Virus record (IMG/VR): IMGVR_UViG_3300033571_001946
Coordinates: 1-54,194 of that record
Source: a virus
Direction: 5' to 3' (one strand)
DNA length: 54,194 bases
In this document: in pieces, positions 7,833 to 35,745 of the stretch
Layout: each line of letters begins with the position of its first letter
Numbering within the stretch: the stretch's first letter is position 1
Notes under the pieces: model-generated
Database searches by the model: none
The model's input: the letters and a program-made list of their open reading frames with translations, nothing else
What the model was told of the DNA's origin: nothing
Position numbers and translations under genes: made by a program

Positions 7833-7834
7833 TT

Positions 7835-12725: not shown

Positions 12726-15700
12726 TTAAAACAAAGCTCGCTGCTTTATAAAATCTAGGTTGCTTCCAGGGTCTTGAAAATCATAAATTTTAGAAAGAAT
12801 AGGAACAAGGTCATTTATATCTTTCTCTAGTTTATAATCTCCTTTTTCATAACGACCTGTCTTTCTCTCATATACCTCAGTAGGAGCAAAGATTAGCTGC
12901 TTCATAGCACCACTCATCTTTTCAAGTACTCCCATAGATACTGCAGGTGTACTAAGGATTCTTAAAGAAGCATTTACATCACCTATATAAAACCCTACAT
13001 CATCACTAAACCTTCTAAGTTGTAGTTCTGCGTGTTGAGTTACAGGATCATCATCATCTAAACCACTTAATCCAAAGATTAAGATGTTAGTTGCAATGAA
13101 TGTAGATATTTCTACTAAGGTCTTTTTTAAAGCTTCTTGTTCTTCAGGAGTACCAGTAGAGAAAGCTTCTAAAGATTTTTCTTTATAGCTCTGTATTACT
13201 TTATTTATAAATACTCTGTAATATCCTGCAGTCCATTCACCCTCTTCCATATCTACATAACCACGACCCCATCTTTTTCTTATGCTTGGGTATACGTATT
13301 TACGGAACATCATAATAAGCTTACCGTACCATCTTCTTTGAAGACTTGGAGAATCAAACCTATTGTAGACACCATGCATTTCTTTGTTCATTTTATGCAG
13401 TTTTTGCATAAGATTGAACCTATCCTGCTCAGACCATTCTACACCAGGTTTTAATTTACCATTACCATCATAAGCATCCCAAAGGCTTATTTTATCTCCT
13501 TTGTAGTTTACTTTAGTACCTTTTAACAAGGCAACCATAGCAGTATACTGAATTTGCTGCTCTGAACCTTTCATTAAAAAATACCCAGCATCAGTAGTCA
13601 TGAGTTTTCTTGCGTAACTACCTGTAATCTTACGACCATACATGTCAGTAAACTCACCTTGAATAGCATCATATACCTCAGCAAGAACACCAAGCTTAGA
13701 TTTAGGTACACCATTAGCTACATCTTGTAGTAAACCTGGAGCTTCAGAAGTATATGTAGCTAAAGCTTCAGCATAATCTTTTGCACTATAGTATCTACTA
13801 CCTACTGTTTGCAGTAAGTTTTGGAAGTTACCAATAGTCACGTTGTTAATAGCAGAAGTTATATTACCCATCAACTGCACAGCAGCTGTAAGAGCTCCTG
13901 CTTTTTTTGCTAGTTTATTTACAGTAATATTAGTACCAGGTATTTTATCTACTATTTCTTCTTCTCCATATACTACTTTATCAAGGAACTCAAGCAGTTG
14001 GTTGTTTATTTTAGTAGCATCAGCTTCAGTCCATTCTGCTTTATCTATTACATCTTTTATACCACCTAAAGCTGTACGTTGTGTAATACCAAGCTGGACA
14101 TTACCTTTTACCAAGTCTGTAAGAATTGATACGTTAGGTAATACATTAGACATAGTATCATACGTATCAGCCATTTGTGAGAACTTAAGAACACTTTGCA
14201 GTAAGTCTTTACTCAGCTGACTATCCTCAATTAAAGAGGTGTAATAGATTGGTACATACTTCTTTCTTTCTCCTGAAGGAGTAAATACACCAAACTCTCT
14301 ATCATAAGTATCTACTTGTACAGCACGTTGCAAGTCAAGCTTAGCAGCTTTTAAAGGATCTTTAAGATAAGCTGCACGCCTATCATCAAAATCCTGTGGG
14401 ATTATACCATGCTTAAGTTGCCTTGCAGGATGTAGCTTTTTATTTGCTGCATCATACTGCTCATACAATTCTTTGTAGTAAGGGTTTGAAGCTACAAGCT
14501 GGAAAAACTTTTCATTCCTATACTTAGCCATAGAGGGTCTTTTAAACTCTCCTGAGTATATAAGTATAGTCTTGCTGTTCTTAGAATAAACTTGCTCAGG
14601 ACTATAATAATCTGAAGTAGATGTACCATCTCCATATAAAGAGTTATCTACTTCTACAGTATTATCTTGAATCCAGCGCTCAAACTTAGCAGGAGATAGT
14701 GTCCTGCGTTTTTCTTCTAGTAAAGCTCTAGTATCAGCAAGCTCAGTGTTAGCTTTATACCAGTTAGCTACTGCTGCTGACCATTGCCTGTGTTCTTCAG
14801 TACCAAGTAAAGGTTTTCTATCACCGTATTTATTCTTAAGCTTCTCAAAGAATTCATCCTTATTCTTTTCAAATAAGTCTGTTCTAATAGGTGTATGGAA
14901 AGCAGCTCTTTTTATATACTTCCATTCACCTTTCTTTTGACCATTTTCTATAATAGGCTTACCATTTTTATCTAGCTCTGCAACAAACTCTTTGTGCTCT
15001 ACATAATGATAGTAAGGTCTATTAAAATCATCCTGGTCACCCTCATTACCAGGAATTTGCTTATACAAAGAAAAAAGCTTGTCACGTCTATCTATCTGAG
15101 CTAAACGTGCATTCTCTAATTCTCTTTTTAAAGTAGAAGCTACAAGACCTAATAAAGGATCTCTACTGTTTGCAACTGTACCAATAAGACCTGTTACTAC
15201 ACTTACATCAGCATCTGCATATTTCAGAAGTTCTTCAAGACGCTCTTCAGATATAAGCATATCTTCTTTGCCTCTTTTACGAAGGTTCTCATTAACCCTA
15301 TCAAGCTGAGGCTTAAGCCACTTTACTGTAAGAGTGTAAGACAGTTCTTGATAATCATTTATAATATCACGTCTTCTTTGAATAGCATTGAATAACCAGT
15401 CTCCGTGCTGACCAAAGACAGAACTTCCATCTTGTCTAAATACACTTTTATAAATGTCATCCAATACACTGTATGTAGCTACAAACTCTTTAAGTTCATT
15501 AAGAGTTTCAGCTACATCTTTTTTCTCCAGTTCACTAAGCTTGTCATAGTCTCCTGAGAGTAGCATATCTTTAATAGCGTTAATACGCTTTTCAGCATAA
15601 GCTACTTTACTATTGGCAGTACGTATAAGGTAAAGCATACCTTCATACTTATTACCTTGCTCAAGATTAAACAGGATAGTGTCAATCTCTTGTACAAGCT

Positions 15701-15947
15701 TTTGACCTAAAGGTTTTTCTTGATAAATCTTACGTTGCTTTTGTAAGACCTCTTTTACCTTATTGACTAAAGGCTTGGGTACAATAGGTACTCCTTCTTT
15801 GTCTTGTTCTAAAAGTTTCTTAGCATCAGTAAGACTTGACGGAATGTCAAACTTATTCAGAATGTATGCCTTCATGGCTTGGTCTTCACCAAGCGCATCA
15901 ATCATTTCACGGTATATAGGGTGTGCTTTGTTAGGACAGAATTGCAT
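12726..15947 (-). CDS. Large virion cargo protein downstream of virion RNA polymerase
   Basis: 1073 residues, starting by a 1-base TAATG overlap with the end of the giant RNA polymerase gene, so the two are translationally coupled. The N-terminus MQFCPNKAHPIYREMIDALG is followed by long charged helices. The C-terminal third carries the basic stretch GKLIMMFRKYVYPSIRKRWGRGY and one hydrophobic segment STFIATNILIFGLSGL, then acidic LDDDDP. In crAss-like phages the RNA polymerase is accompanied by other large ejected proteins; this is the best reading here, with the basic and hydrophobic end perhaps touching membrane or DNA during entry. No enzymatic motif was found. I cannot say whether it is a second polymerase subunit. 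Confidence 0.65.
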   Translation of the reverse strand: MQFCPNKAHPIYREMIDALGEDQAMKAYILNKFDIPSSLTDAKKLLEQDKEGVPIVPKPLVNKVKEVLQKQRKIYQEKPLGQKLVQEIDTILFNLEQGNKYEGMLYLIRTANSKVAYAEKRINAIKDMLLSGDYDKLSELEKKDVAETLNELKEFVATYSVLDDIYKSVFRQDGSSVFGQHGDWLFNAIQRRRDIINDYQELSYTLTVKWLKPQLDRVNENLRKRGKEDMLISEERLEELLKYADADVSVVTGLIGTVANSRDPLLGLVASTLKRELENARLAQIDRRDKLFSLYKQIPGNEGDQDDFNRPYYHYVEHKEFVAELDKNGKPIIENGQKKGEWKYIKRAAFHTPIRTDLFEKNKDEFFEKLKNKYGDRKPLLGTEEHRQWSAAVANWYKANTELADTRALLEEKRRTLSPAKFERWIQDNTVEVDNSLYGDGTSTSDYYSPEQVYSKNSKTILIYSGEFKRPSMAKYRNEKFFQLVASNPYYKELYEQYDAANKKLHPARQLKHGIIPQDFDDRRAAYLKDPLKAAKLDLQRAVQVDTYDREFGVFTPSGERKKYVPIYYTSLIEDSQLSKDLLQSVLKFSQMADTYDTMSNVLPNVSILTDLVKGNVQLGITQRTALGGIKDVIDKAEWTEADATKINNQLLEFLDKVVYGEEEIVDKIPGTNITVNKLAKKAGALTAAVQLMGNITSAINNVTIGNFQNLLQTVGSRYYSAKDYAEALATYTSEAPGLLQDVANGVPKSKLGVLAEVYDAIQGEFTDMYGRKITGSYARKLMTTDAGYFLMKGSEQQIQYTAMVALLKGTKVNYKGDKISLWDAYDGNGKLKPGVEWSEQDRFNLMQKLHKMNKEMHGVYNRFDSPSLQRRWYGKLIMMFRKYVYPSIRKRWGRGYVDMEEGEWTAGYYRVFINKVIQSYKEKSLEAFSTGTPEEQEALKKTLVEISTFIATNILIFGLSGLDDDDPVTQHAELQLRRFSDDVGFYIGDVNASLRILSTPAVSMGVLEKMSGAMKQLIFAPTEVYERKTGRYEKGDYKLEKDINDLVPILSKIYDFQDPGSNLDFIKQRALF

Positions 15948-18900
15948 TATGCTCCAGTGTTACATTTTTTAATAAACTCTTGTACTAATTCTTCTTTTGT
16001 CATAAGCTTAACTTTAGACATAGCATCCATTAAAGGCATACCTTCTTGTATATATGCATCTCTAACAGCCTTCCGCATCTCATCTACAGCAGGTAAAGTA
16101 TTAGCGTCTTGAGCATAACCAGCATCAGCAGCTGCAGCTTTCTTATTAGCTGATAACAAATCTAAAGGATTACCGCTAGAAACAGGTGCTTCTTTTTTAA
16201 CAGGCTGGGCTTTAGTTGTAGAGATCTGATCTAAAGGATTGTTAGCCTGCTCCATTAAAGGCTCTGACTCACCATTTATATCTTGAGTTTTTTCTTTCTT
16301 GGGCAGTTTACTTTGAGCTACTTTCTCAGCTTCTTCTAGACCTATACCATAAGGTACTACTTTGTTGTACTTATCTCCAAGAGTTTCTTTAAGTACATAA
16401 GTAGCACGTATACCTACTTTAGAACCATCAGCTTCCCTAGTCTTTTCAGTAAACTCTACGCCTTCTTTAGTCTTCTTACTTACCTCTACACTCTTAAGTA
16501 CATAGACACCTTTAGAATCTTTCATTCTAAATCCATCTAAGAACTTAATTCTAGTATAAGATTTACCACCTACTACTTCTGTAGTAAGAGCAAACATCTC
16601 ATTAAGGTTAGTAAGATTAGAAATAAACTTAGCCAGGTTTTCTTCTTGTACTTTACCTTGCAGACTCTTCTTAACCTCTTCCCAAGATTTTACTTCACCT
16701 GTTTCAGGATCTACAGACTCTTCTTGGATAGCTGAAATTTCTGTTGCAGTATAACCTGCCTGCCATCCTTTGAACATATCAAAGGTAATAGAGCCATCCT
16801 CATTTTTAGTTACAGGCATTTCAGGTTTAAATGCTCCTTCTTTATAGAAAAGTAAGTTACTATAATTCGCAGCATCTCGTACAGACAGTTCTACAAACTC
16901 ATCAGTAAGTTCTTCTAAAGACTTACCAAACATTTCTTTGTACTCTTGTTCAGTAGCTTCTTTGTTAAGTAATTCTAACACTCCTTTGCTAGCCCTACTG
17001 TATGCTTTAAACATAGCAGCAGGCATAATATTAATGAAAGAATTATTCTTAAACTGCAGTGCATCTTTAGCTACAAGGTAATTAAAGAGCTTAATTACAA
17101 ACTCTCTAGTATGTTCTGCAGCATAGAGATTCTCTAGGTCATTAGTAAGACGTGTCTCAAACTCTACATTACCTTTTGTAGAGTTATAGTTGATACCCAT
17201 AAAACCATTGCTAGTTTGTGGTCTAAATCCTAGGCTATACAAAGCAGGGCTTTGACCTACAAACTCAGGGTACTTTTCAGAAAGTTCTTTGTACTCATCA
17301 AGTAACATAGCCTGACTATCTTCAAGCTTATACAGCAGTCTAGAAATATTGTCTGTGTTTAAGACTGTAGATTTTTGCTGTATACTGTAAGCTCTTAATA
17401 CAGTAAATGCTAAAGCAGCTTTCTTTATAGCGTTCTTTTTAGTAGCTACATCTCCAAGTACACGCTCAATATTACGCCATCCTGCATTAGTCATTTTACG
17501 TAAAGCAGGTGTTTGACTTATGGCAATCTTACCTGTGTTAGCTCGTTTATCTGCTAATACCTCAAGATTAGCTTTAGTAAGCTTATGCTCTCTAAAGATC
17601 TTAAGAATATTAGGCATAATCTTATTCTCTTTGGCCTTTACAATCTGCCAAGAACCATTGACTTTTTCAAGCTTACCACCTAATTGTTTAAGAGTCTCTA
17701 TAATAATTTCTTCTTCTTCAAATGTAGACCCTGTACCTTTAGTAATCTTAATTACACTACCAATCTTTGAAAAAGTCTTAGTGATAGGCTCAAGCCCACT
17801 GTACATAGTAAGAGCTTTGTAATTAGCCACAAGGTACTCTAACTGTGCTTGTTTATCATCAGCAGCTCTTTCTTTCAAAGCATTGAGTAACTCTTCTGTA
17901 GTAAACTCATTACTGTCTAAATCTACAGTAGCATTAGGAGCTATCTCTTTAATCTTTTTCTTTATATCCTCTAGCAAAGAGTTATAATACTTACTAGTAT
18001 TAATATACTTTTCACCTAAAGGACGAATCTTATTCCTTTTATTAGCTACAAATTGTGTATACTTCTTTACATAATCTTGGTTGATTAAGTACAAAGCGTC
18101 ACGTAAAGAATAACCTAACCCTACAAGGTTAGATACATTTGACAATGCGTCTATACTTAACCCAAGCTTATTTACAAACCCATACTTAGGGTTATCAGTC
18201 ATTGCAGAGGTTAAAGTAGACAAGATGTCCATGACTCTTTTGCCATCTTGGGTTTGATAGCTAGTGTACCCTTCTGATGTAAAGCCATTTATTTTAGGAA
18301 GGTTCTCCAAAAAGAGCTCACCAATCTTTATATTAAACTCACGCAATCTACCAAATATCTGAGTAGCATTTACTGCAGCACCAATAGACTCTTGACCTGC
18401 TCTGTTAGAATCTAAAGCCTGCATAAGAGCTGTAAGAGTACTTACATCATGCTTTACATCCATCTCATCATAAGACTCAAAGCCTTTAGCCTTAGCAATC
18501 TCATCAAGGATTGTTTCTACCTCATCAATAGTAGCAGGAGTAGAAGTAATCTTTCTTACAGCTGGATTAGAGTGTAAAACAATCTTAGCATTAAGAATAG
18601 TATTATTCAGAGTACCAGGGTTAAGTTCCCCTTTTTCTTTAGTCTGCTGAGCATACTCTGCAGCATTAGAAGGTAATCCAAGTTCTTTTAATGCTCTTAA
18701 TACAAGTTGCTTGTTAAGATCCCTAAGCTTCTGTTTAATAGCAGCTTTCTCGTTAATAAGTTCTTCCTTATTAACAATCATCTCTTCACCTAAAGAAAGC
18801 TCTTCAATGATATTTCTAAGGATCTGTTTTAACTCAAGTTCTTTAGTATTAGCACCGTTCTTTTCAATGTCTTCTGTAATATACTCTTTTACAAGAAGGT

Positions 18901-21900
18901 CTACAAACTTATCGTTAGTGTAGTATTGTAAGAACTGATCAAACTCAGAGTCTTCTGTATTCCCATACACCATAAACTTAGGTTTACCATTTACATATTT
19001 GACGTAATGGTCAGGCCTATGAATATAGAATGAGTCAATATCAAAGTCAGATCCTGTAAGCTTTACAATCTCATGAGGAAACACTGCATTAGAACCAGTA
19101 AAGTTAGGCAGGATGTCTACAAGCTTTAAGCTCATTGCAGAGTGCTTATCTTGAGAAGGAATTCTCAATCCAAACATATATGCAATCTCTTCAGGTATAA
19201 TATCACCAGCTTTAAGTCCAAACTGTTCTGCAAAGTGTGCAGACATTACAAACTCAGAGTACTTACCTATCTCTTTACCATTCTTATCAAGCCTTGGTTT
19301 GTTGTAAGCTAAGTCACGAGTCTTTAATCTACCAGCTTTATAATCAGCCATGTATTTCTCAGGGTTCTCGTCAAACATAGCTTTGTTGACAATAACCTCT
19401 GTACCATCAGCTTTTTCATAAAACATAATCTGGTGTCCAAAGCCAGACTGTAAAGTAGTTTTATAGCCAGGAATCTTCTGACTGAATACCTTATTGAAGT
19501 GTGCATTGTACATAGCCTCAAACTTTGCAGTAGTATGAGGCATATTTGCAAAGTCAAACACAGGGACACCACTTGAATCTACCTTAAAGAAGTCTAGTAA
19601 CTGTCCAGTAGCTCCTGTTTTGATAAGACTTTCACGCATTATCTTAGCAAGGCGACCCATCTTAGGATTAGTCTTACCTTCTTGTAATGCAAAGATTATA
19701 GATTTAGCTGGGATGTAGCTACGAGTTACCTTCTGAGCTTGTGCAGAATCATATAAATCAAGCAGGTCTCCTACAGTCTTGATGTTATCATAAAAAGGGT
19801 ACTCTATCTTTTGAGCCCTGTCTTGTTCTACCTCAATGATATTTTGCATCTGGGTAGGATTACTAATCTGATCTTTATTTGATGGGTTCTCTTGTTGTAA
19901 CCTACCAAACAAATTACTGATGCTACCTACTTGTCTTGTAGGATCAGGGACACTAAACATATCATTAGCATCCATTTCTACTACATTCTCAGTAAGCATC
20001 TTAGATGCAGAGGGAGGCATTAACAAGTCTATACCATGCTGCTCCATTTGTTGCAACATGTTAAACTTAACTTCCATTCCAGGACGTGCTACTCTTTCAC
20101 CATTTATCTCAACAGATACTTCTTCTCTGCTAAGAGTTTGTACAGACAGTTTAAAGAACCTAACTCCATCATGGTATACTAACTTCATAGAGTTAGCCAT
20201 GACATTCTCTTTCTTCAAGGTAGTCCAATCTTCAGGTGAGATAGGTTTACCTTCTATAATGTCATTATAGATTGCACGAGTCTTTTCAGTAAGTCTGCCT
20301 AAACCATACAAGTAATTCATAGCAGCTCTTGCAGAAATGTAACCTTGAGCATCTGCAATATCTACCTTACCTTTCTTGCGTATATCAGCAAGTTTCTTTT
20401 CTTTTTGTGCTTGTGTAAGAGTATCATCATTCTGAATAGAGTCAAGGACTTCTTTAAATTCAGCTTGATCCTCAGGGTTGTTCATATCTAAAACCCTGTT
20501 AGTAACAGTAAACTGTTTACTAGGATCTTCTATCTTACCACCTGCAGCTCTTTTACCTATGATTGCAAAGCGTGTTTCAGGCATCATTTCACTATACAAT
20601 GAATCACCTGAAGCATTACGTGCTTTAGCACGCTTAAACCAATCAATAGGATTCTTAACTACTTGTGCAGCATCTCCTTTGATAAGTTGATTATAACTTA
20701 ATCTGTTTAGGTAGTTATTTAAAAAGACTTGAGCAATATTATCTCCAGCATATCCAGAAGTAAAAGGATTTTTCATCCTCTGGTCTGTCATTGCTTTTAA
20801 AATCTTATTACGTGTTTCTGTAGTTTCAGAAAGCCACTTACCACCACTTATATAATCCCTACGTCCATACCTAGTATCTAGGAGTACGTTTATATAAATA
20901 GGTTTACCGTCTTTATACCCTTTCTTTACTACACCTAGCTTAGCAAGCTCATCAAGATGTGTATCAATTTGAGCTGTAAAGTACTTCTCAATCTGCTCTT
21001 TAAGTGCAGGAATATATTGATCAAACTCACCAGCTGAAGCTGCTTCTAACTCTTTAAGTAAATCAGAGTTTTCAAACTTAAGCAGGTTCTCAAAGTGCCA
21101 GAACTTAAAGCCTCTCAGCTTATTACGTTCACCTTCAACAGCACCCCAATTAAACCCTTCTATCTTATCTAAAGGATTAGAGCCTTGACTCTTTACAACT
21201 TGAATCCTGTTAAACTCTCTTCTTACCTCTGCTACAATAGCATCTTTAAACTTATCAGTAATCTTACCTTGCTTGTCAATAGTATCTACTACAGGTAAAG
21301 GTACCATATTAAGAGACTTTGAGTTCTCCATAATATCCAGAACAACAGGTCTTACTTCTACCTCATTGTTACCTACTATACCATCAAATCTAGAGTCAAG
21401 GTAATGACTGTACTCAGCAAGTGCAAGTTCCCTAGCTTTATAATCTCCAAAGGTTGACCCTTCTTCTGACTCTTTGAAAGTATCAACTTCAAATTGTCCA
21501 AACTGGTTTATCTTCATGTACCTTACTCTTGCCCCATCTTCACGGAGCAGCTTAAGGTGAGCTTTGATTTTTTGGAAATTAGCGTTCTTAAGTAAGTAAT
21601 GGTCTTTAAAATACTCGCTCTGGTAATCAAGAGGCAATAAGTCCATTCTATCCCTAGCTATAGCTAAGGTTATAATACTATCAGCAGTAGGCTTTTGTAA
21701 GCTGTAGATAGTCTTATTCTCAGCATTTAAGAATGAGTTAGGAGATAAAGTCTCATCAAATAACTCATTGTTCTTAGCAAGAACAAGGATTCTACTTACC
21801 AATCCTACCTCTACTTCTTTCTCTTTACCATCCTTTTTAACCTGTTCAACATCACGTACAAAAGGATTCTTACCTGTAGAAATATGTTTTACAAGCTCAT

Positions 21901-24900
21901 CAATTGTAGTTACTATATAAGGCTGGTCTTCTCTTAAACTATAACCAAAAGATTCTACATAGCTTTTTTGAATATCAGATATACCTGCGTAGTTAGGGTT
22001 ATTTAGTACTAAGAACTTAAGGTAACCTTGTGATAAAGAAATACCTACAGATTTTAATGCTTCATCTAGATTAGTAACCCTGAACATAACATCAGAGTTA
22101 CTTAACTCTTTAGGAGTATTGATATTAATAGCATTACTAGCTTTAGTAAGTTTATCAACAATCTTAGCTTTAGCTGTAGCTATTTTCTCTTCAGGAGTTT
22201 TACCCCACTTTTGCCAGGCTTTTACATAAGCAGCATTCCAACTTTCAAACTGTTGTTGGTCAGCAGTCTTACGATTAGAAGAGTAAGATCTTGCTATACC
22301 CAGATTAAAATCATACTCTGTAAATGTATGGTCATGTGAATGCAGATTAAACCCTTTAACCATTGCATGATATAAATCAAGGTTAGCAGGTTTAAGTTCT
22401 GACTCAGAGTAATTTCCATCTTTTAAGAATGACTCAAGAGGAAAGCCAATATCATTTAAAAACTTATCTATTACATACCTAGGCTCACTAGACACATTTC
22501 TGTAATGAATGAGCTTAGTCATTACTTCTTTGCTAGTCAAAGAATTCTGAGTAGCCTTGGCTATACCATTATATACACGTTTAGTGTCTACTGCTATAGT
22601 CATAGTAACATCTTCAGGGAATACATCAGGTACTCCAAAGAAGTCATTAAGACTTGTAGTATATGTAGTAAGAGAAATATAAGCTCTAAGCTTCTTACTT
22701 AAGTTTTTAAAACCACCTAAGTTTTCTTGATTTAGATCCCTATTTCTTTCTTTAGATTCTGTATCACCTTTTTTAGATACCTCATCATTACTTTCACCTT
22801 CATTCTCTTCTACTACCAAGTCTACATCAAAAGATTTAAGAGCAGCCTCTACTGCATTCTTAATCTCTGTTCTTGGAGACTTTGGAAACCCAGGTTCATT
22901 TATATAAGACTCTGGGTTAAGAGCAAACTCAATAGAGTAAAATAAGTCTTTTGCTTTTTCATTAGTACTAGCATCAATATAATCAGATCTAGTATCTAAG
23001 TTAAAGTTATCATGGAATGCATTTATAGCTTCATCAATAAGCTTACTTGTAGGAACATTAGGCTTAAGCTTAGCAGCATTATATACATTACTAATAACAG
23101 TACCAATAATTTGGTTACTTATATGCTCAGGTAAGAATGTAGGAATGACTACAGGATTACCTTTATCATCTAATACATTATTACCATTAACATCTTTTTC
23201 AAAAGAAGATCCTGCAAATAATGATACTTGAGCAGGAAGGACAGTACCAGTAAACTGGTTACTAACCATCTGCTTGTTCTTAAAAGTACCATTATCAATA
23301 GCTTCAAACAGACCATCAAATGCATCTGCTTGTTTACTCTTTACAAAAATATCTAAGACTTTGCTAAGCTTTTCCCAAAGAGTCTGAAGAATACCTGCTA
23401 AACCAGTCTTAGCTTTAGTCTCTTTAGCCATGCGATGAGCTTTATACTTATCTGCCATGTACTCTTCAAGCATAAGATTAAAAATCTCCTGCTCTGAAAA
23501 CTTAGTACCTGGGTTCTTAGCATAGAACTCTTTGCTAAACTTAGCTGCCTCAGAAGTAATACTTATATTCTTCTTCTTAAGCTCATCACGCATCTGCTGC
23601 TTTGCAGCATCTCTGTAAAATGCAATCTCCTGATCTGTAAGAAATGCACGGAATACTCCGTGAAAAGCCTCATGATATTCAGTACCTTCTGGAGAAAACC
23701 TAGATAATCTAATTAAATTATCCTTAAAGTCTCCGTATAGTACAGAGCCATTTGCTAATCTTTCTTCTAACGCATCAAGAACTGTAACACCTATACTATC
23801 TCCAAATACACTACGTATATAAGCAAAAGCTTTAGTCAAGTCTCTAGCCCTAGCACGCACCTCTCCACTACTCTGAGCATCAGGATCTAGCTTAGTAGGA
23901 TCAATCTTTACTTGTCCACGAGGATTAGCTTTCTTATTAGAAACAGGAGCTGCAGAAGGTTGAGTAGGTGTAGGTGCTTGTGTAGCAGGTTGAGCAGGAG
24001 TACTATAGTTTATTCTAAACGAAAGATTAGTCTTTACGTTAGGAGTAACAGTAGGATAAAAAGATTGTAACGCAGCATCTGTATTAAGATCTGGTAGCTG
24101 TGTAGGAATTTGTGTTTTAAAATTCTTTACAGTAATAGCTGGTTCGTTCTTATCAGTACGAATAGCATCTACTGCAGGCTTACCTTGAAACTGCTGTGGT
24201 CTTTTAGGATCTTGTAGACTTTCATTAAGCTTTGTAATAAACTCATTTGCAGTAGTTGTAGGAGTTATAGTTACATTAGCAAAGACAGAAGGTTCAGAAC
24301 CAAACTTAAACTCTAATGTAAACTGCTTAAAGTCTTCACTAAAATATAAACCTACATCCCAACCACTTCTTAAAGAAAAGAATACTTCTGAATTAAGAAG
24401 AGTAGCCATCTCTTTAGGAGTAGCAGTCTTTTCTTCTTGGAAAGTTTTAAGAGTATTAAGAAGGTTGTCAATAGGATACTGAGAAGGCACCAAAGGAACC
24501 CACTCATACTTTTTATTATCTCCTTTAATACTTACTGTACCATAAGGATGCTCTACCAAAGCTACATACCTTTGTAAAAGCCTAGTGTTATGGATTTTAC
24601 CCATAGCTTTTCTTTCAGCTAAAGCTTCAAGGGCAGCTTTATATTCTTCTTTAGTTTCTAAAGTAGCAGGGTCTACATGCATTTGCTGTAAACTCTTATC
24701 AGTATTAGTATCTACAATAAACAGATTATTATCAGCATCCCTATATACAGGCCTTTCAGAATCAAATTGCTCTAACATAGGAGCTTGAAGCATGTCAGGG
24801 GCAGCTTCAAAGAACCCTTTGTTTATTTGAGGGTTTATAAGCTGGATAAGTTCTTCAGTATTATATGTATTCTTACCTTGCAGTAATTGAGCATATACGT

Positions 24901-27900
24901 AATCAAAGAATTTCTTAGCTTCTTGATAAGCTTTTACAAACTCTTGGAAGTTAGCCTTAGTACCTTTACCCGTCTCTTCGTTTATCTCTACACTAAAAAG
25001 AGTTTTCCACTCTTCGTAGCTCATAAGAGTAGGGTCTAATGGTATACCTTCTTCATTTACAAACTTACCATAGTAAGGTATATAAGCAATGTCTTTTCCC
25101 TTATGCTGAATAGCCATAGTAAGAGGAGAACCACTAAATGCATATGGAGCATTCTCTACTTTTGTAATTTTTAAAGGGTCTGTATTAAGTCGTATATCAA
25201 GAGTAATCTCATCTAAAGCTGCAGGATCATTTATAAGAAGATCATCTAAAGCTTGTTGAGCTTTTAATCTAGCAGCTTTAACTTTTGCTTTACTCATCCC
25301 ATCAAGGGGATCAGTAGAAGGAGTATCTACTTCACTATCTACAAACTGTTCACCTATAACAAAGGTATTTAGATACTCACGAATATCTTTAAAAGGACGC
25401 TTTACTTTCTTGTCTTCTTTTGTTTCAGCATCCTTAGCATTCTGACGTTTGATTAACTCTTGATGAATTGCTCTTACTTTATCAGAGCTTACAGTATAAC
25501 CATTCTCTTCTGCCTTAGCTACAATAGCTTCTACATCTTGTGATGATTTAGCTTGAGCAAGCTCTTCTGCTAAAGTATTAGCAGTTACATTTTCTCTTGA
25601 AGAAATTTCTTGTGCAACAGCTTGGTCAAGTTCTGCTAGTTCTTCTGCTCTATCATTAATAAGCATTTCAGATGCAATCTCTTCTCTAAAACCACGAAGA
25701 TCTGCAATATCCATACTAGCCAAGTCCAGTTCTTTACCATTAAGATCTGTAACTATGTTCTTACGATTAACATCTTTTACAAAGACATCATTAATTAACT
25801 CTGGAGGTAAGTTAGATTGTTTTTTTAAAGTACTTGCAGTTTGTTTGTTATTCTCTTCCTGCTCAGCATTTTCAAACATTGCTTGAAAAGCTTCATCTTC
25901 AGTCTGAAGAACTTCCAAAGCTTTTGCAGGATCCTGTAAAGCATTATAATACTTTACAAAGTCTCCTTTTCTTTCTGTAAGTTTATTTAAATCTGCAAAC
26001 AGATTAACAAGTGCTGCACCTTCTACAGGACTCTCAGCCTCAAACTGTTTTAAAGCAGCTGTATAAGAATCTATTGCATTGCTCTTTAACTCTTTGAGGT
26101 ATTGCTCATATGTCTTTTCAAAAGGAACATTCTCAGGAGTAACAGTATCTGCAATAGTAAAGATGTTCTTATGCATCTGCAAAAGCTTAGAAGCCTTTGC
26201 ATCTTTAAGATCAAGAATCTCTTGTTCTATATTCTTAGTACGTGCCTCTACATCTTTAATAGTAGAAGCTGCAAAGAAAAACCTATCTCTTATCTTTTGA
26301 TTAGTAGTTCTTTGTTCAGGTGTACCACTAGAAATACCATAAAGAGTAGTAAGATTGTCATTAAGCTTCTGTAACTCTGCAGTCTTATTAACAATCTTAT
26401 CAATATCTTCTGTAGTAGTACCAGGACCAAAATGCTTTTCTAACTCTGCAGGATCTATGTCTTTCATAGACTGCAAACGAGTTACAAAATAATCTGTAGT
26501 ACCTGCATCAATCTGAGCTTTGATATATCTATTTAATGCCTTGTCTGTTTCGTTCTTAGCACTAAATAAATCTCCTTTCTTGAGATACTCTTCTCCTTTA
26601 TTTGCATCACGTACACTGCCTAAGTACTCTCCTATAAGCTTGTTACTTTGTGTAAAGTTAGGATCAGCATTAAGTGCATCTACAAGCTTCTTAGTATTCT
26701 CATTCTTAGCAAGCCTTTCTGCACGTACACCTTTTAATCCAAAAGGTCCACCCACAATACCTCCAATAAGAATAGATTCTAAACCTTCTCTGTCAGTAAG
26801 AGTACTTGAAATACCCTCTGCTGCACCTTCATAAAAAGCATCAGCCCAAGCATCTCTTGAAAACTGGTATTGATCTACAAACTCTCGTGATGCTATGTTA
26901 GATGCATACTGTGCACCTTCTTGTAAAGACTCAGGTAAGAACCCTTCGACAAACTTTTTACCAAAGTTAAAATACGCAGCTCCTTTCTGAGCAGCTACTT
27001 TATCAAAGTATTCAGTAGTACCTTCTGCAAGAGTTCTAGTACCAATACTATTGTATTGTTTAATTGCAGCTTTCTTACCTGGATTGATAAACTTACCTAA
27101 AAGCAAAAGGTTTGTACCTCCTGTAATAGGCATGTTGATAAGGTAATTAGTATTACCTACATCAGTAGCTAATTGCTCAATCTGTTTATCAGTAAGAGAA
27201 GCATACTGTGCATACTCAGGATTAAAGTCAGGATTAGAAGGATCTCCTAAAGCTCGTGCTTCATTATAAAAATCCAAAGCTTCTTTAAAACTTTGGCGTG
27301 CTTCCATAGAAGATTCACCATGAGCAAGGACAGTACCTAAAGCCATCTCTTTAGTTAAATCCCATCTTCCTTTACTAGCTGCTGCTGCACCTATACCTTC
27401 TGCAGTAGTACTTAATCTTCCTGCTGCAATAGTTTCATCTCCAATCTGAGCAAGCTGTGCAGCTTTACCCATTTTGAATAGACTGCTTATACCATAACCT
27501 GCAGCTAAAGAACCTATAGTATAACCAGCACCTCCTAAGACTTTATCAAACCAAAAGTTTTGATACCCCATACTACCAAGAAGACTAGCGTTCTTCTCAG
27601 CCTCACTATAATAAAAAGGATTAGACTCTCGTACTGCCTCATTTATAGAGTCCATAGCTTGGCCAAACTCATTGTTCCAAACTTGATCAGCCTCTCCTGT
27701 AATAAGACCTTTTGATATCCCATAAACAAAACCTACTGTAGAATCAAGAGCACCTGTAAAAGCACTAATAGTCATATTAACTAGACCATTACCAAGCTTA
27801 TCTAAAGCAGTTTGTTCTTGAGCCCTTATTTCATTTAATTGTTGTAAGTTTTCAAATGTAAGGGGTTGCTTATCATATTGAGATTGTCCATATCCTGTAT

Positions 27901-28006
27901 ATCCTACTTGTATAGGAGTTGAAATAGTAGGGCCAGTCTTTGCTACTACTATTTCAGGAACAGAAGGTGTATTATTAGGAAGTGTGGGATTTAATGTATC
28001 AGCCAT
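15947..28006 (-). CDS. Giant virion RNA polymerase with metallopeptidase-like domain
   Basis: A 4019-residue protein. Residues 71-103 and 155-180 are hydrophobic Gly/Ala-rich helices that could insert in a membrane. A Pro/Thr/Ala-rich linker near 1340 precedes a zincin-like part: HEAFH at 1445-1449 with a likely third ligand in EEYMAD at 1514-1515. The polymerase core lies roughly at 2600-3400. RIPSQDKHSAMSLKLVDILP is followed by KLTGSDFDIDSFYIHR, whose D2987, D2989 and D2991 form the DxDxD metal-binding loop of the double-psi beta-barrel, as in the single-chain crAss-like phage polymerase of Cellulophaga phage phi14:2. It should be packaged and ejected with the DNA to transcribe early genes. 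It is coupled by TAATG overlaps to both neighbours. The functions of most of residues 180-1330 and 1530-2600 are unknown. Confidence 0.85.
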   Translation of the reverse strand: MADTLNPTLPNNTPSVPEIVVAKTGPTISTPIQVGYTGYGQSQYDKQPLTFENLQQLNEIRAQEQTALDKLGNGLVNMTISAFTGALDSTVGFVYGISKGLITGEADQVWNNEFGQAMDSINEAVRESNPFYYSEAEKNASLLGSMGYQNFWFDKVLGGAGYTIGSLAAGYGISSLFKMGKAAQLAQIGDETIAAGRLSTTAEGIGAAAASKGRWDLTKEMALGTVLAHGESSMEARQSFKEALDFYNEARALGDPSNPDFNPEYAQYASLTDKQIEQLATDVGNTNYLINMPITGGTNLLLLGKFINPGKKAAIKQYNSIGTRTLAEGTTEYFDKVAAQKGAAYFNFGKKFVEGFLPESLQEGAQYASNIASREFVDQYQFSRDAWADAFYEGAAEGISSTLTDREGLESILIGGIVGGPFGLKGVRAERLAKNENTKKLVDALNADPNFTQSNKLIGEYLGSVRDANKGEEYLKKGDLFSAKNETDKALNRYIKAQIDAGTTDYFVTRLQSMKDIDPAELEKHFGPGTTTEDIDKIVNKTAELQKLNDNLTTLYGISSGTPEQRTTNQKIRDRFFFAASTIKDVEARTKNIEQEILDLKDAKASKLLQMHKNIFTIADTVTPENVPFEKTYEQYLKELKSNAIDSYTAALKQFEAESPVEGAALVNLFADLNKLTERKGDFVKYYNALQDPAKALEVLQTEDEAFQAMFENAEQEENNKQTASTLKKQSNLPPELINDVFVKDVNRKNIVTDLNGKELDLASMDIADLRGFREEIASEMLINDRAEELAELDQAVAQEISSRENVTANTLAEELAQAKSSQDVEAIVAKAEENGYTVSSDKVRAIHQELIKRQNAKDAETKEDKKVKRPFKDIREYLNTFVIGEQFVDSEVDTPSTDPLDGMSKAKVKAARLKAQQALDDLLINDPAALDEITLDIRLNTDPLKITKVENAPYAFSGSPLTMAIQHKGKDIAYIPYYGKFVNEEGIPLDPTLMSYEEWKTLFSVEINEETGKGTKANFQEFVKAYQEAKKFFDYVYAQLLQGKNTYNTEELIQLINPQINKGFFEAAPDMLQAPMLEQFDSERPVYRDADNNLFIVDTNTDKSLQQMHVDPATLETKEEYKAALEALAERKAMGKIHNTRLLQRYVALVEHPYGTVSIKGDNKKYEWVPLVPSQYPIDNLLNTLKTFQEEKTATPKEMATLLNSEVFFSLRSGWDVGLYFSEDFKQFTLEFKFGSEPSVFANVTITPTTTANEFITKLNESLQDPKRPQQFQGKPAVDAIRTDKNEPAITVKNFKTQIPTQLPDLNTDAALQSFYPTVTPNVKTNLSFRINYSTPAQPATQAPTPTQPSAAPVSNKKANPRGQVKIDPTKLDPDAQSSGEVRARARDLTKAFAYIRSVFGDSIGVTVLDALEERLANGSVLYGDFKDNLIRLSRFSPEGTEYHEAFHGVFRAFLTDQEIAFYRDAAKQQMRDELKKKNISITSEAAKFSKEFYAKNPGTKFSEQEIFNLMLEEYMADKYKAHRMAKETKAKTGLAGILQTLWEKLSKVLDIFVKSKQADAFDGLFEAIDNGTFKNKQMVSNQFTGTVLPAQVSLFAGSSFEKDVNGNNVLDDKGNPVVIPTFLPEHISNQIIGTVISNVYNAAKLKPNVPTSKLIDEAINAFHDNFNLDTRSDYIDASTNEKAKDLFYSIEFALNPESYINEPGFPKSPRTEIKNAVEAALKSFDVDLVVEENEGESNDEVSKKGDTESKERNRDLNQENLGGFKNLSKKLRAYISLTTYTTSLNDFFGVPDVFPEDVTMTIAVDTKRVYNGIAKATQNSLTSKEVMTKLIHYRNVSSEPRYVIDKFLNDIGFPLESFLKDGNYSESELKPANLDLYHAMVKGFNLHSHDHTFTEYDFNLGIARSYSSNRKTADQQQFESWNAAYVKAWQKWGKTPEEKIATAKAKIVDKLTKASNAININTPKELSNSDVMFRVTNLDEALKSVGISLSQGYLKFLVLNNPNYAGISDIQKSYVESFGYSLREDQPYIVTTIDELVKHISTGKNPFVRDVEQVKKDGKEKEVEVGLVSRILVLAKNNELFDETLSPNSFLNAENKTIYSLQKPTADSIITLAIARDRMDLLPLDYQSEYFKDHYLLKNANFQKIKAHLKLLREDGARVRYMKINQFGQFEVDTFKESEEGSTFGDYKARELALAEYSHYLDSRFDGIVGNNEVEVRPVVLDIMENSKSLNMVPLPVVDTIDKQGKITDKFKDAIVAEVRREFNRIQVVKSQGSNPLDKIEGFNWGAVEGERNKLRGFKFWHFENLLKFENSDLLKELEAASAGEFDQYIPALKEQIEKYFTAQIDTHLDELAKLGVVKKGYKDGKPIYINVLLDTRYGRRDYISGGKWLSETTETRNKILKAMTDQRMKNPFTSGYAGDNIAQVFLNNYLNRLSYNQLIKGDAAQVVKNPIDWFKRAKARNASGDSLYSEMMPETRFAIIGKRAAGGKIEDPSKQFTVTNRVLDMNNPEDQAEFKEVLDSIQNDDTLTQAQKEKKLADIRKKGKVDIADAQGYISARAAMNYLYGLGRLTEKTRAIYNDIIEGKPISPEDWTTLKKENVMANSMKLVYHDGVRFFKLSVQTLSREEVSVEINGERVARPGMEVKFNMLQQMEQHGIDLLMPPSASKMLTENVVEMDANDMFSVPDPTRQVGSISNLFGRLQQENPSNKDQISNPTQMQNIIEVEQDRAQKIEYPFYDNIKTVGDLLDLYDSAQAQKVTRSYIPAKSIIFALQEGKTNPKMGRLAKIMRESLIKTGATGQLLDFFKVDSSGVPVFDFANMPHTTAKFEAMYNAHFNKVFSQKIPGYKTTLQSGFGHQIMFYEKADGTEVIVNKAMFDENPEKYMADYKAGRLKTRDLAYNKPRLDKNGKEIGKYSEFVMSAHFAEQFGLKAGDIIPEEIAYMFGLRIPSQDKHSAMSLKLVDILPNFTGSNAVFPHEIVKLTGSDFDIDSFYIHRPDHYVKYVNGKPKFMVYGNTEDSEFDQFLQYYTNDKFVDLLVKEYITEDIEKNGANTKELELKQILRNIIEELSLGEEMIVNKEELINEKAAIKQKLRDLNKQLVLRALKELGLPSNAAEYAQQTKEKGELNPGTLNNTILNAKIVLHSNPAVRKITSTPATIDEVETILDEIAKAKGFESYDEMDVKHDVSTLTALMQALDSNRAGQESIGAAVNATQIFGRLREFNIKIGELFLENLPKINGFTSEGYTSYQTQDGKRVMDILSTLTSAMTDNPKYGFVNKLGLSIDALSNVSNLVGLGYSLRDALYLINQDYVKKYTQFVANKRNKIRPLGEKYINTSKYYNSLLEDIKKKIKEIAPNATVDLDSNEFTTEELLNALKERAADDKQAQLEYLVANYKALTMYSGLEPITKTFSKIGSVIKITKGTGSTFEEEEIIIETLKQLGGKLEKVNGSWQIVKAKENKIMPNILKIFREHKLTKANLEVLADKRANTGKIAISQTPALRKMTNAGWRNIERVLGDVATKKNAIKKAALAFTVLRAYSIQQKSTVLNTDNISRLLYKLEDSQAMLLDEYKELSEKYPEFVGQSPALYSLGFRPQTSNGFMGINYNSTKGNVEFETRLTNDLENLYAAEHTREFVIKLFNYLVAKDALQFKNNSFINIMPAAMFKAYSRASKGVLELLNKEATEQEYKEMFGKSLEELTDEFVELSVRDAANYSNLLFYKEGAFKPEMPVTKNEDGSITFDMFKGWQAGYTATEISAIQEESVDPETGEVKSWEEVKKSLQGKVQEENLAKFISNLTNLNEMFALTTEVVGGKSYTRIKFLDGFRMKDSKGVYVLKSVEVSKKTKEGVEFTEKTREADGSKVGIRATYVLKETLGDKYNKVVPYGIGLEEAEKVAQSKLPKKEKTQDINGESEPLMEQANNPLDQISTTKAQPVKKEAPVSSGNPLDLLSANKKAAAADAGYAQDANTLPAVDEMRKAVRDAYIQEGMPLMDAMSKVKLMTKEELVQEFIKKCNTGA

Positions 28007-30051
28007 TAATCTAAAGTAAAATTATTCTGAGTTAACCAATTCACATATTCTTGTTCATATACAGACTTAGCGTCACTAGAGTTCAATAAAGTACCCTTCT
28101 TATTATCAGAAGTTACAGAGTACCTATTAATCTTTACTCCATAAACACCATCAGCAGAAATATTAGGAGAATACTCATATAAGAATGGTTTATTAACACC
28201 ATTATCTGCTTCATATACTACTTGCTGTTGCGCTTTATTATTCTTAAAGGCTTGAGAAGCTCTTATACTGTGTGTGTATACTCTCTTAGTTGCAGCATCT
28301 TGCTCCATTACTATATCCTGAGGTACACCATTCTTATCAGGTATTTGCGCTAAGACAGCTCCAGGATTTAAGAATCCTCCAAAGCCAGTAAACACAGCTT
28401 TATCTAAAGCTTCTTGTGGTACACCATCTTCAAACCCTAACTTTTTCTCTGCTTGACGTTTAGTACCGCCTTCTTGTAAAGAGTAAGTTACCCTATTAAA
28501 TACATTAGTATTGAAAAGAGCTCTTTGTACAGACTCTGACATAGCAGGTTGTCTAGGAGTCATCATGTTACCTATTACAGCAGACCCATTCTTAATACTT
28601 TGCTGTACAAAGTTAATTACATTACCTGCGTTAGCATCATAAGTAACTGAACCATCACCAGTTTGCTTAGTCTTTTGTGTCTTAGGGAATTTAGTAGCAA
28701 CTTCAGGAAACTCTTTTCTTAATTCTTCAGCTTGCTTATCAAATGCCTGCTGTTTAGTTTCAGTAGAAAATATCTTTCCCATGTCTTCTACAGACTGATT
28801 TAATCTTTGTGTAGCTGCTCTACCAGAGTTAGAACTTGGAACACCTGTTGTAGCTAAAGTAGGATCAAATATAGCAGCTATACCTACTCCTATCATATCT
28901 CTTACAGGACTAAGTAAATAACCCCATCTTCTTAATCCAGTACCAGCTGCATTCTCTTGTCCTCCTTGAATACTACCATCTGGAGATACACCTACTGATT
29001 CAGGAGCACTAGCTGCAACTGCAGGTAATGTTTGAGCAGGTAACTGGAAGTCATACAAAGCTCTTTCTCTAGCTTCTCTTTCATTATCTCTAGCTCGCCA
29101 GTTTTCTTTATAATCTGCATTTATTGTACGCTTAGACTGTCTGTAAATATTTCCTGCGTTACGAGCAGCTCTTTTTACATCTCCATAGAAACTTTCTTCT
29201 AACCATTGGTCAGCATTCATTTGAACTTGACCTTGAGGTGTATCTATAATAACTCCTTCAGCAGGACTGTTTGCTAATGTTTGACGCCAGTTGTCTAGAT
29301 CTCCAGAAACTGTATGCTTAAACTTGAGATAGTCGTTAACTTCTCTATCTTGCATTACCATTCTATAAGCCGCCCTTTCAATTTCATCTGCAGCTAAAGA
29401 TGTATCGCCTGTTGTAAGATTAACAAAGTAACCAGTGTTACTATCATACTTTAACCCTGTCATTTGTTCAACAGTTTGAGGCTTCATCTCTTTAGCCACT
29501 TCCATTACCTTAGTCTCAATATCTACGTGAGGTTGAGAAGCCATAGTATTATAAGTAGACCATCCATAAGCAGTCTTCTCAATAGGTTTATTCATACGAG
29601 ATAGCTCATAATTACGAGCATTAAGAGCATCTTCTTCTGACATGCCTCCTTTCTCTCCCATCATATATCTCTTTACAGCTTCTGCTCGTTTAGCTTCAGC
29701 TGTAGAGAATTGATTATATCTTTCTTTAATAGCTCCTAACTCACCATAATTAGTCTCATATTGTACTTTACGGTTCAAAGCTTTAATCTCAGGAAGAGCA
29801 CCTGCTAAATTACCCTTATACTTATCTACTAATGAATATACTTGTTGTTGTAATTCTCCTACTAACTCTTGCTTTCTTGGAGTATCTAAAGGAATACTAT
29901 TGATCTTAAGAAAAGATTCATCTAATCCTGATAAAAGCTCATCAGCTTTATCTTGTCTCTGCTGTCTCTTTTCATACCCATACGCCAATGCCTCAAAAGG
30001 CAAAGGCGCTATTTTCATTTCTAAGGGTTTAGTCCACGGTGATATAGCCAT
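28006..30051 (-). CDS. Virion cargo-like protein, 681 residues
   Basis: The N-terminus ISPWTKPLEMKIAPLPFEAL leads into long charged helices (KRQQRQDKADELLSGLD, then YSLVDKYKGNLAGALPEIKALNRK), the typical start of internal podovirus and crAss-like cargo proteins. The middle (residues about 330-400) is Pro/Ala/Gly-rich, probably flexible, with GVGIAAIFDPTLATTG, and the C-terminus is beta-rich. No catalytic motif was found. It is 11 bases downstream of the 950-residue gene and coupled to the RNA polymerase gene by a TAATG overlap, so it is probably part of the same set ejected into the cell. The role as cargo is inferred from position and composition; its specific task is unknown. Confidence 0.65.
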   Translation of the reverse strand: MAISPWTKPLEMKIAPLPFEALAYGYEKRQQRQDKADELLSGLDESFLKINSIPLDTPRKQELVGELQQQVYSLVDKYKGNLAGALPEIKALNRKVQYETNYGELGAIKERYNQFSTAEAKRAEAVKRYMMGEKGGMSEEDALNARNYELSRMNKPIEKTAYGWSTYNTMASQPHVDIETKVMEVAKEMKPQTVEQMTGLKYDSNTGYFVNLTTGDTSLAADEIERAAYRMVMQDREVNDYLKFKHTVSGDLDNWRQTLANSPAEGVIIDTPQGQVQMNADQWLEESFYGDVKRAARNAGNIYRQSKRTINADYKENWRARDNEREARERALYDFQLPAQTLPAVAASAPESVGVSPDGSIQGGQENAAGTGLRRWGYLLSPVRDMIGVGIAAIFDPTLATTGVPSSNSGRAATQRLNQSVEDMGKIFSTETKQQAFDKQAEELRKEFPEVATKFPKTQKTKQTGDGSVTYDANAGNVINFVQQSIKNGSAVIGNMMTPRQPAMSESVQRALFNTNVFNRVTYSLQEGGTKRQAEKKLGFEDGVPQEALDKAVFTGFGGFLNPGAVLAQIPDKNGVPQDIVMEQDAATKRVYTHSIRASQAFKNNKAQQQVVYEADNGVNKPFLYEYSPNISADGVYGVKINRYSVTSDNKKGTLLNSSDAKSVYEQEYVNWLTQNNFTLD

Positions 30052-32919: not shown

Positions 32920-35745
32920 TTAAAGATTATCTAGCCAACCGCCAGAAGATTGTTTGTTATATTGTTTTACTCCTGTTCTAGGATAGTCAGGTATCCAGTT
33001 GTATATTGGACCACCATCTGCTTTTTTATAAACAGGCTTCCTATAACCCATTTTAAGCAATTGCTCTTCACTATATACAGGAGGTACTTGTGGAGTATTA
33101 CTCCATTCACCTTTAGTATCCATGTATTGAGTAGGTAATGGATTACTTTCAGGTACATTTACTTTCTGAGGCATAGCTTCTATATTATCAGAAGGTAAGC
33201 CTCGCATTGGCATCTGTACCATCAGATGGTACAGATGTAGCATATTAGGTATGTCAGGATTAAAGATTACTTTTTGTTTAGGTTCTGCGTACTGAGGATA
33301 AATCACCCACCTAGAAGAATTGTTTCTTATTTGATGAGCATCATCTATAAAATATATAGGTCTAATTTTATTTTTTTGTTCGTATTTTTGGCCTAATTTT
33401 TTTACATGTTGTTCTAATTCAGGTACTGAAATTATATCCCAATTATATTTTTTAGCATCTTTAATAAGCTCTGGATCATAATACTTTTTAAATAAACTTG
33501 AACTATCATTATAAGCTTTTAATCTTTTTTCATACTCTGCACGATTAGAAGTAATGAATGGTAGTACATCTCCTCCATCTGCAAAAGTAATTCCTCGTTG
33601 ATTAGTAGGTCCTACATACATTCCTGCATCAGATGCTCCAGGATTAACAGCATAAGGTATACCTACTCTTTTTTTATATTTACTTGTAATACGTCCACCA
33701 TTTCTAGCAAACATCATATCTGTAGCTCCTACATTAATATCTCCTACTCCTCCTAGGTTAGCATTGGTAAGACCTCCTCCTGTGTTACTACCAGGATTTA
33801 CAAACATGCTACCAAGAGATCCTAATTGACCTATAGTACCAAGAGCTTTAGAATTAAATTCACTTCCTGCAGTACCAAGCAATTCTCCAGCTCCTCCTAC
33901 AATCTGTTGAGGATTACCACTAGCTATACCTGCAACTAAGTTACCAGCACTAGAAGTAAGTTGTCCAGTTTTATTAGCCCACTTGTCCGCACCTCTTTGT
34001 TTCTCTTGACTAGTGCCTATACCTTTACTTATTTGTTGTAACTGTCCTTTACCCATTCCATAAGCTGGGCCTAAGAATGAAGTACCTACTACATCTGCTG
34101 CTCCTCCAAGTATTCCTTCAGATACAGCAGCTGCATTAGCCATACCTTTATTAGCATAGTTAAAGTTAACAAAGTTATTACCTGTAACTTGTTCTAATGG
34201 AGCAGCAAGAGTATTTGCAAATAACTTTCCTATATCTCCTACAGTAGAACCTAAACCATAACTAGGTACATAACCACCATAAGCCATACGTGTAGTATCA
34301 GGTGCATGTAATCTCATAGGTCCTTTGTAAGGATTGTATCCTTGAAGTACAGGAGGAGATGAAGGACTGTAAGGATCCGTAGGTCCTGTTATTTTAATCT
34401 CAGGATATGGTACTTGAGTACCAGGAGATTGTGCACGTTGAGGTGTTATCCTTTGAGTAGTAGTACGAGTAGGAGTACCAGCTACCCAAGTAGGTGTAGT
34501 TTGTTTAGTCCATACGGTAGCACCATGTGCATACGCAGGAATCTCAGGAGTAGCATCTACAATCTTACCATCAGGTAAAGTAGACTTAGGAGTACCCATC
34601 TGATAATTAGTCAAAGTCCTATCAGGATAATCAGGATAATAAGATGGAGTAGTAGGAGTAGGAATCCTTTGGTCTTCTATTGTACTTCCATTAGCATACT
34701 TCTCTAGCCAACCGCCTTGCTTATTACGTGCACCTACTCTTGGATAGTTAGGTGGGATCCAGTTATATACTGGACCTCCATCTTTTTTCATCCCTGTCTG
34801 ATACCCAGCTTTAGTATATAAAAAATTCTTTAAGAATGGATCTGTAATAAGTTGATTATTAACAGAGACTTGTTCACCAGTAGCAGGATCTCCAGCATAA
34901 TGAATTAAAGAACCAGGAGTAGTCTGTTTGTAGTATTGTCTAAACCCATCATTATCAGCTATAGACGACTCAAAAGTATTTGCGTAATTATTATTATCTT
35001 GAAAAGTCTTTTGAGTAGATACAGAACTTATTCCTGTATTATAAATAGGACCTCCATCTTCTTTAATAGATACATTAGGACTATATAAATCCCAATACTT
35101 ATCTTTTACTTCTGCATATTCTTTTTCAAACTTAGGATCTTTAGCTAATAAAATCTTATTAACATAGTCAGAAGTTTCTTCAGGTAACTCTTTTAACCAT
35201 TCTAATTTATTAGAATAAATATCAATACCTTTTTGTTTAGCCTTATTTAAAGTATTAATTACGTTTGTAGGTCCATAGTTATAGGCTGCTAAAGCTTTAG
35301 CTACTTTAACAGTATCTGACTCATTACTAGAATGATTGATCCAGTTTCTTCCCATAAGATCCCCCATCATCCATTTTTGAAACTTTACTGAATTTTCGGG
35401 AATAGTTACATCAATATCTTCTTTAAATTTCTTTTTATATTCTGCTAATGCTGCAGGCATTGCTTGTGCCATACCTAAAGCACCTTTAGAAGATTTAGTT
35501 AATCCTTGTACAACTAAAGGATTAAACATACCAGTTTCTTTACCAGTTTGCCTGTGATATATTCTATTCATATCTATCTCTTCTCCAGCTTTAGGAGAAG
35601 TAGATTTTACAGGCAAAGTAGGAGGATTAGGATTTTGACTATACCACTCCTGCCAATTAGAATAGCCTGGGGGTAAATTTTTAGGTAAAAACAAAGGCCT
35701 ATGTGGGGTAGGCGATACTTGAGTAAGTTTACTTTTCTTAGCCAT
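32920..35745 (-). CDS. Virion lytic transglycosylase with repeat-bearing C-terminal part
   Basis: A 941-residue protein. Residues about 57-200 form an SLT/GH23 lytic transglycosylase domain: catalytic Glu70 in TGKETGMFNPLVV, the motif KGALGMAQAMPAAL (87-100) and AAYNYGPTNVI (153-163). This would cut peptidoglycan glycan strands to let DNA through the wall during entry, as does gp16 of T7. The rest is mostly low-complexity Pro/Thr/Gly sequence with Gly-Ala-rich helices (about 490-680). Two copies of the pattern DGGPxYNWIPxYPRxG followed by GGWL occur at about residues 321-353 and 907-941 (the end). Start and end are coupled to neighbours (TAATG at 35745). An AT-rich segment near residues 735-835 looks like an insert. 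Confidence 0.78.
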   Translation of the reverse strand: MAKKSKLTQVSPTPHRPLFLPKNLPPGYSNWQEWYSQNPNPPTLPVKSTSPKAGEEIDMNRIYHRQTGKETGMFNPLVVQGLTKSSKGALGMAQAMPAALAEYKKKFKEDIDVTIPENSVKFQKWMMGDLMGRNWINHSSNESDTVKVAKALAAYNYGPTNVINTLNKAKQKGIDIYSNKLEWLKELPEETSDYVNKILLAKDPKFEKEYAEVKDKYWDLYSPNVSIKEDGGPIYNTGISSVSTQKTFQDNNNYANTFESSIADNDGFRQYYKQTTPGSLIHYAGDPATGEQVSVNNQLITDPFLKNFLYTKAGYQTGMKKDGGPVYNWIPPNYPRVGARNKQGGWLEKYANGSTIEDQRIPTPTTPSYYPDYPDRTLTNYQMGTPKSTLPDGKIVDATPEIPAYAHGATVWTKQTTPTWVAGTPTRTTTQRITPQRAQSPGTQVPYPEIKITGPTDPYSPSSPPVLQGYNPYKGPMRLHAPDTTRMAYGGYVPSYGLGSTVGDIGKLFANTLAAPLEQVTGNNFVNFNYANKGMANAAAVSEGILGGAADVVGTSFLGPAYGMGKGQLQQISKGIGTSQEKQRGADKWANKTGQLTSSAGNLVAGIASGNPQQIVGGAGELLGTAGSEFNSKALGTIGQLGSLGSMFVNPGSNTGGGLTNANLGGVGDINVGATDMMFARNGGRITSKYKKRVGIPYAVNPGASDAGMYVGPTNQRGITFADGGDVLPFITSNRAEYEKRLKAYNDSSSLFKKYYDPELIKDAKKYNWDIISVPELEQHVKKLGQKYEQKNKIRPIYFIDDAHQIRNNSSRWVIYPQYAEPKQKVIFNPDIPNMLHLYHLMVQMPMRGLPSDNIEAMPQKVNVPESNPLPTQYMDTKGEWSNTPQVPPVYSEEQLLKMGYRKPVYKKADGGPIYNWIPDYPRTGVKQYNKQSSGGWLDNL
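32931..33027 (-). repeat. DGGPxYNWIP...GGWL repeat, copy B (C-terminal)
   Basis: Encodes the last about 32 residues of the transglycosylase protein, with DGGPIYNWIPDYPRTG and then GGWLDNL just before the stop. It is similar to copy A at 34696-34785. Confidence 0.7.
33211..33237. repeat. Perfect 12-bp inverted repeat inside the transglycosylase gene
   Basis: CATCTGTACCAT (33211-33222) and ATGGTACAGATG (33226-33237) flank a 3-base centre CAG. It would form a tight 12-bp hairpin in mRNA or a cruciform in DNA. It lies in coding sequence (codons for HLYHLMVQM) next to an AT-rich part of the gene. Confidence 0.8.
34696..34785 (-). repeat. DGGPxYNWIP...GGWL repeat, copy A
   Basis: Encodes about residues 321-350 of the transglycosylase protein, with DGGPVYNWIPPNYPRVG then NKQGGWLEKYANG. 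The partner copy is at 32931-33027, about 1.7 kb downstream in transcription. The DNA is clearly similar but diverged. Confidence 0.7.

Follow-up and report, generated by a model that had tools for sequence, protein, structure and literature searches.

Does a giant phage protein that carries both a peptidase-like motif and the catalytic loop of an RNA polymerase work as one machine, and does its peptidase-like part act on the chain itself? The question is raised by an open reading frame (ORF) of 4019 amino acids at 15947..28006, on the minus strand, as are all features of the window given below. The window is the whole stretch of DNA analyzed here, positions 1 to 54,194 of a 54,194-base virus record that is a linear, 54-kb fragment. 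The original prediction described a single 4019-residue chain, strand unstated, with HEAFH at residues 1445 to 1449 and DFDID at residues 2987 to 2991; the ORF is uninterrupted, and both motifs are present and conserved among relatives. What had been observed was mostly right, while the interpretation placed on it mostly was not.

From its sequence, the window is a crassvirus (order Crassvirales), as indicated by a muzzle protein of 1819 amino acids (35745..41204; PF25731, E 2e-134), and it has the Crassvirales trait of a large transcription gene block beside tail and cargo genes (for comparison, see PMC7886860). A DNA-level search with the first 25 kb of the window found no close phage record. 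The ORF shares one base with each of its two neighbors, an arrangement like that of a tight operon. The upstream neighbor encodes 681 amino acids weakly similar to phi14:2 g068 (28006..30051; E 4e-4), and directly downstream, with its start overlapping the ORF stop, lies the gene of a 1073-amino-acid, gp49-like, RNA-polymerase-associated protein (12726..15947), which matches crAss001 gp49 by blastp (E 3e-49) and aligns at 35 to 38% with the corresponding proteins of the IMG/VR loci L018 and L019. A 941-amino-acid protein with an SLT transglycosylase domain (PF01464, E 4e-9, above the cut-off) is encoded at 32920..35745. Between it and the polymerase block, a protein of 950 amino acids (30066-32915) matched no Pfam family or phage record, and one of 1244 amino acids in the structural gene block (46002-49733) matched no PHROG, Pfam family, or phage record.

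This crassvirus record, not described before, can be assigned to an established polymerase family by profile and structural comparison. Scans of the whole chain with Pfam and PHROGs found no meaningful family, and weak Pfam rows and a PHROG tail-fiber row (E 0.0026) were dismissed as noise. A tblastn search with residues 1301-4019 matched crAss-like phages, with several of the matched proteins annotated as RNA polymerase (RNAP) subunits. In IMG/VR, a scan with the single sequence found 0 relatives; the 80 that were kept came from a profile scan. A 13-sequence profile around DFDID (19034..19048; chance expectation by composition, 0.0025 for a protein of this length) matched the virion RNA polymerase of phi14:2 in the PDB (6vr4_A, E 4e-37), with DFDID aligned to gp66. 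The AlphaFold2 model of residues 2297-3417 (17756..21118; 44 sequences, pLDDT 81, pTM 0.81) matched the same structure across the whole core in Foldseek (E 6e-28, probability 1.00, TMq 0.63), in agreement with a gp66-like fold; the next fold matches, QDE-1 (E 0.0025) and RDR2 (E 0.021), were weaker. R2948, P2950, and the DFD.D residues do not vary among relatives, in most of which the RIPS motif of the window (residues 2948-2951; 19154..19165) reads RIPT. We take RIPS to be comparable to the RxPT of cellular β′, the order R-x-P-T...DFD resembling that of the β′ subunit, and the DxDxD catalytic loop of the chain is present in a β′-like context. The term virion polymerase is supported by homology to phi14:2 gp66 and to the crAss001 cargo proteins gp47, gp49, and gp50, all three of which were found in virions by mass spectrometry (PMC10172136); the database record of phi14:2 annotates g065 to g067 from MS/MS proteomics. 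A review puts the length of crassvirus polymerases at up to about 6000 amino acids (PMC10136315).

Judged by sequence comparison, the ORF joins a gp47-like cargo protein, which carries the zincin-like domain, to a gp50-like virion RNA polymerase, and we infer that the junction lies near residue 1630. This assignment follows from the mapping of the chain onto crAss001 by blastp and from the distance between its two motifs. Residues 21-431 (26714..27946) match crAss001 gp47 48-520 (E 4e-19), with residues 40-352 also matching phi14:2 g067 (E 1e-8); the HEAFH region matches gp47 again, at 2119-2181 (E 3e-8); and residues 2915-2999 match crAss001 gp50 around DFDVD (E 5e-12), so that the order of gene parts in the window is gp47-like, gp50-like, gp49-like. 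HEXXH and DxDxD are 1542 residues apart in the chain, similar to the distance of about 1650 to 1670 that results from joining the two separate proteins of crAss001, crAssphage, or Jaberico in tandem. Among crAss-like phages the fused state, with both motifs in a single ORF, is common: it was found in 36 of the 80 IMG/VR relatives, a set that is not dereplicated and in which many ORFs run off the locus, with a spacing of 1280 to 1812 residues; unrelated HEXXH motifs in L071, L089, L092, and L095 were excluded from this count. The earlier figure of about 2200 residues without assignment proves too high, as alignment with crAss001 gp47 covers about the first 430 residues and alignment with two IMG/VR relatives extends over about the first 1240. 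L018 and L019 align across residues 42-3941. For most of the stretch from the zincin to the modeled core, and for the C-terminal ~600 residues, only close relatives can be aligned.

The occurrence of a peptidase-like domain in a polymerase chain had been presented as a novelty, but this kind of fusion is already public, and the 4019-residue chain adds another member. GenBank annotates the partner as a zincin: in crAssphage (Carjivirus communis), gp45 is a "putative RNAP associated protein fused to zincin protease," comparable to the zincin part of the chain, and gp44 a "putative RNAP catalytic subunit fused to unknown RNAP subunit," comparable to its polymerase part. Proteins of cr11_1, cr110_1, and ctbg_1 have labels similar to that of gp45, and the Jaberico protein bears the note ZnMc_tr. 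Unlike the window, crAssphage keeps zincin and polymerase apart, joins the polymerase to the downstream part instead, and has a divergent type of zincin. The Bacteroides phage crAss001 (Steigviridae) shares TTYHEAFHVVF near the C terminus of gp47, DFDVD in gp50, and gp49 as the counterpart of the 1073-residue neighbor, but its gp47 and gp50 genes are unfused and lie on opposite strands. In the Cellulophaga phage phi14:2, gp66 (PDB 6vr4) resembles the window by its DFDID core, in sequence profile and predicted fold, g065 is a gp49-like neighbor, and g067 matches the N terminus of the chain; g067, g066, and g065 are, however, separate genes, and zincin is undetected in g067. Single chains with HEXXH followed by DFDID, and with a downstream partner gene, occur in Suoliviridae phages cr118_1 (4946 amino acids), cr113_1 (4328), and cr130_1 (5801), in another branch of the tree and under the annotations DNA helicase or DprA-like. 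The cr118_1 chain has both motifs and no stops, whereas those of cr113_1 and cr130_1 would need recoding, because they contain 73 to 74 standard stop codons. Most similar are the single chains of L018 and L019 (4334 and 4301 amino acids; 30 to 37% identity over most of the length), which have the same downstream gene and differ by a longer, variable linker ahead of the zincin.

The core of the zincin-like domain spans residues of about 1390-1555 (23342..23839). Within it, HEAFH (23660..23674) would provide two zinc ligands and the general base E1446, and the ExxA motif (residues 1515-1518; 23453..23464) the third ligand. In our alignment A3 of 26 relatives, H1445, E1446, H1449, E1514, E1515, and A1518 are identical throughout. 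The third ligand had been placed at 1514-1515, which can be narrowed to E1515 as the most likely residue, since it alone changes (to T or I) together with both histidines throughout a zinc-less clade in which E1514, though also invariant in A3, is not replaced. The AlphaFold2 model of the core (pLDDT mostly >85) places HEXXH within one helix and E1515 in a later one. A fold search of BFVD with this model gave 14 matches at E ≤0.001, to giant proteins of which the named ones are all crAss-like; among the giant proteins matched by the zincin region, one crAss-like group is annotated as zincin. The divergent zincin of Intestiviridae (crAssphage-type) is related by profile comparison (probability 93%). 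Against solved structures the outcome was different: the PDB fold search had no match at E <0.001 (a PprI entry at E 3 is not evidence), and PDB sequence searches with zincin profiles gave weak or unrelated rows only, from which Pro-Pro endopeptidase rows (E 0.45 to 0.5) were set aside. Pfam had no match to the region. The original assignment as zincin-like therefore stands on the conserved HEXXH...ExxA and the crAss-like matches, and not on any solved zincin. Taken together, conserved residues, the modeled core, and the BFVD and profile matches make a metal-site domain well supported and a zincin fold around HEAFH likely as a prediction, and the domain probably binds zinc. In the collection of literature searched, no paper on a zincin or metallopeptidase of crAss-like phages turned up.

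The lack of Pfam and significant PDB matches would also suit the view that HEAFH is a chance motif and that no zincin is present. We consider this highly improbable, as a chain of this length and composition should contain only about 0.03 HEXXH by chance, HEAFH, E1515, and A1518 are unchanged in a diverse set of relatives, HEAFH lies on a confidently modeled helix, and the profile similarity above is to a zincin annotated separately.

It had been proposed further that the chain may process itself. As a self-processing polyprotein, it would be cut by its own zincin, for example near the gp47/gp50 junction, to free the polymerase at assembly or entry. The zincin indeed lies just ahead of the inferred junction, both parts occur as separate genes in relatives, and the first histidine is kept in 50 of the 63 loci in which the profile detected the domain. 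Self-processing demands an active protease in every fused chain, however, and this is contradicted by chains that have lost their ligands. In 10 loci (L041, L042, L043, L044, L047, L049, L051, L052, L053, and L068), WEAFR or a near variant of it stands in place of HEAFH, and E1515 is replaced by T (nine loci) or I (one), so that all three predicted zinc ligands are lost and the general base E is retained. In three others (L026, L030, and L031), the motif reads EEAFH, with E in place of the first histidine. These domains sit mostly in fused polymerase chains, such as those of L041 to L053 and L026/L030, and they fall in two separate places of the tree, which points to two or more losses, at least one of them complete and one partial, rather than thirteen events. 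Moreover, split phages keep the zincin near the C terminus of the gp47-like protein, where no junction exists for it to cleave, and the phi14:2 polymerase is functional although g067 of that phage, with an N terminus that matches that of the 4019-residue chain, has no HEXXH and no zincin-profile match. Obligate self-cleavage of the polymerase chain is therefore unlikely from sequence, and the self-processing polyprotein as such appears very doubtful to us.

Retention of the domain after ligand loss in two clades would be expected if it now served only in the folding or docking of the ejected chain, its chemistry being unimportant. Set against the invariance of ligands and general base in most lineages, including all 26 relatives in A3, this seems rather unlikely. 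About as doubtful, in our estimation, is a mixed situation in which the zincin of the window would be active and triggered by entry, freeing the polymerase or cutting a specific host protein after injection, while the zincins of sister lineages would be inactive and structural. The retained domain after predicted ligand loss in two lineages and the functional phi14:2 polymerase without a detected zincin are possibly new observations, and through them the role of the crAss-like zincin becomes testable by comparison of intact and zinc-less chains.

The reading that we hold to be very probable is that of a gp47-like cargo module fused to a gp50-like virion polymerase, with a gp49-like partner encoded downstream and a zincin that, if active, would most likely act in trans. 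The gp47-like module would comprise the N terminus and the zincin-like domain, and the gp50-like catalytic module to which it is joined would hold β- and β′-like active-site parts within one chain, with the gp49-like partner encoded directly downstream. By analogy with relatives, the chain would be packed in the capsid, threaded via portal and tail with the first DNA, and refolded inside the host, where it may transcribe early phage genes without the host polymerase. Least certain is the step at which the zincin, if active, would most likely act in trans on a protein of the host or the phage, cutting it during entry or afterwards; it would not be needed for release of the polymerase from its N-terminal partner.

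The chain had been suggested previously to be an "autonomous entry machine," and membrane-like helices had been noted at residues 71-103 and 155-180. Averaged over 19 residues, Kyte-Doolittle hydropathy peaks at 1.09 and 0.99 in these segments, no such stretch in the whole protein exceeds 1.26, and the usual membrane cut-off is 1.6. A transmembrane reading of the N terminus was rejected on this low hydropathy. Homologous N termini are more hydrophobic, with 1.57 in crAss001 gp47 (105-125) and up to 1.72 in phi14:2 g067 (168-192). Judging by its domain, the SLT transglycosylase protein is more likely than the giant chain to cut the cell wall, and gene order keeps the chain together with separate muzzle, SLT transglycosylase, and gp49-like proteins. 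With helices that are insufficiently hydrophobic and a likelier neighbor for cell-wall cutting, autonomous entry is left unsupported.

Two minor observations concern more distant proteins. The cyanobacterial Leptolyngbya phage Lbo-JY46 (L099) encodes relatives of the N-terminal region of the chain (7122-11780; E 5e-17) and of the gp49-like protein (11782-20028; E 5e-64), with no DFD.D-type motif in the three proteins searched. Other HEXXH motifs occur in L098 g065 (residue 245), L013 (11176-18699), L071, L092, and L095, in RNAP-block proteins or at unusual spacing; sometimes present twice per protein and without a match to the domain profile, they may represent a different peptidase-like domain.
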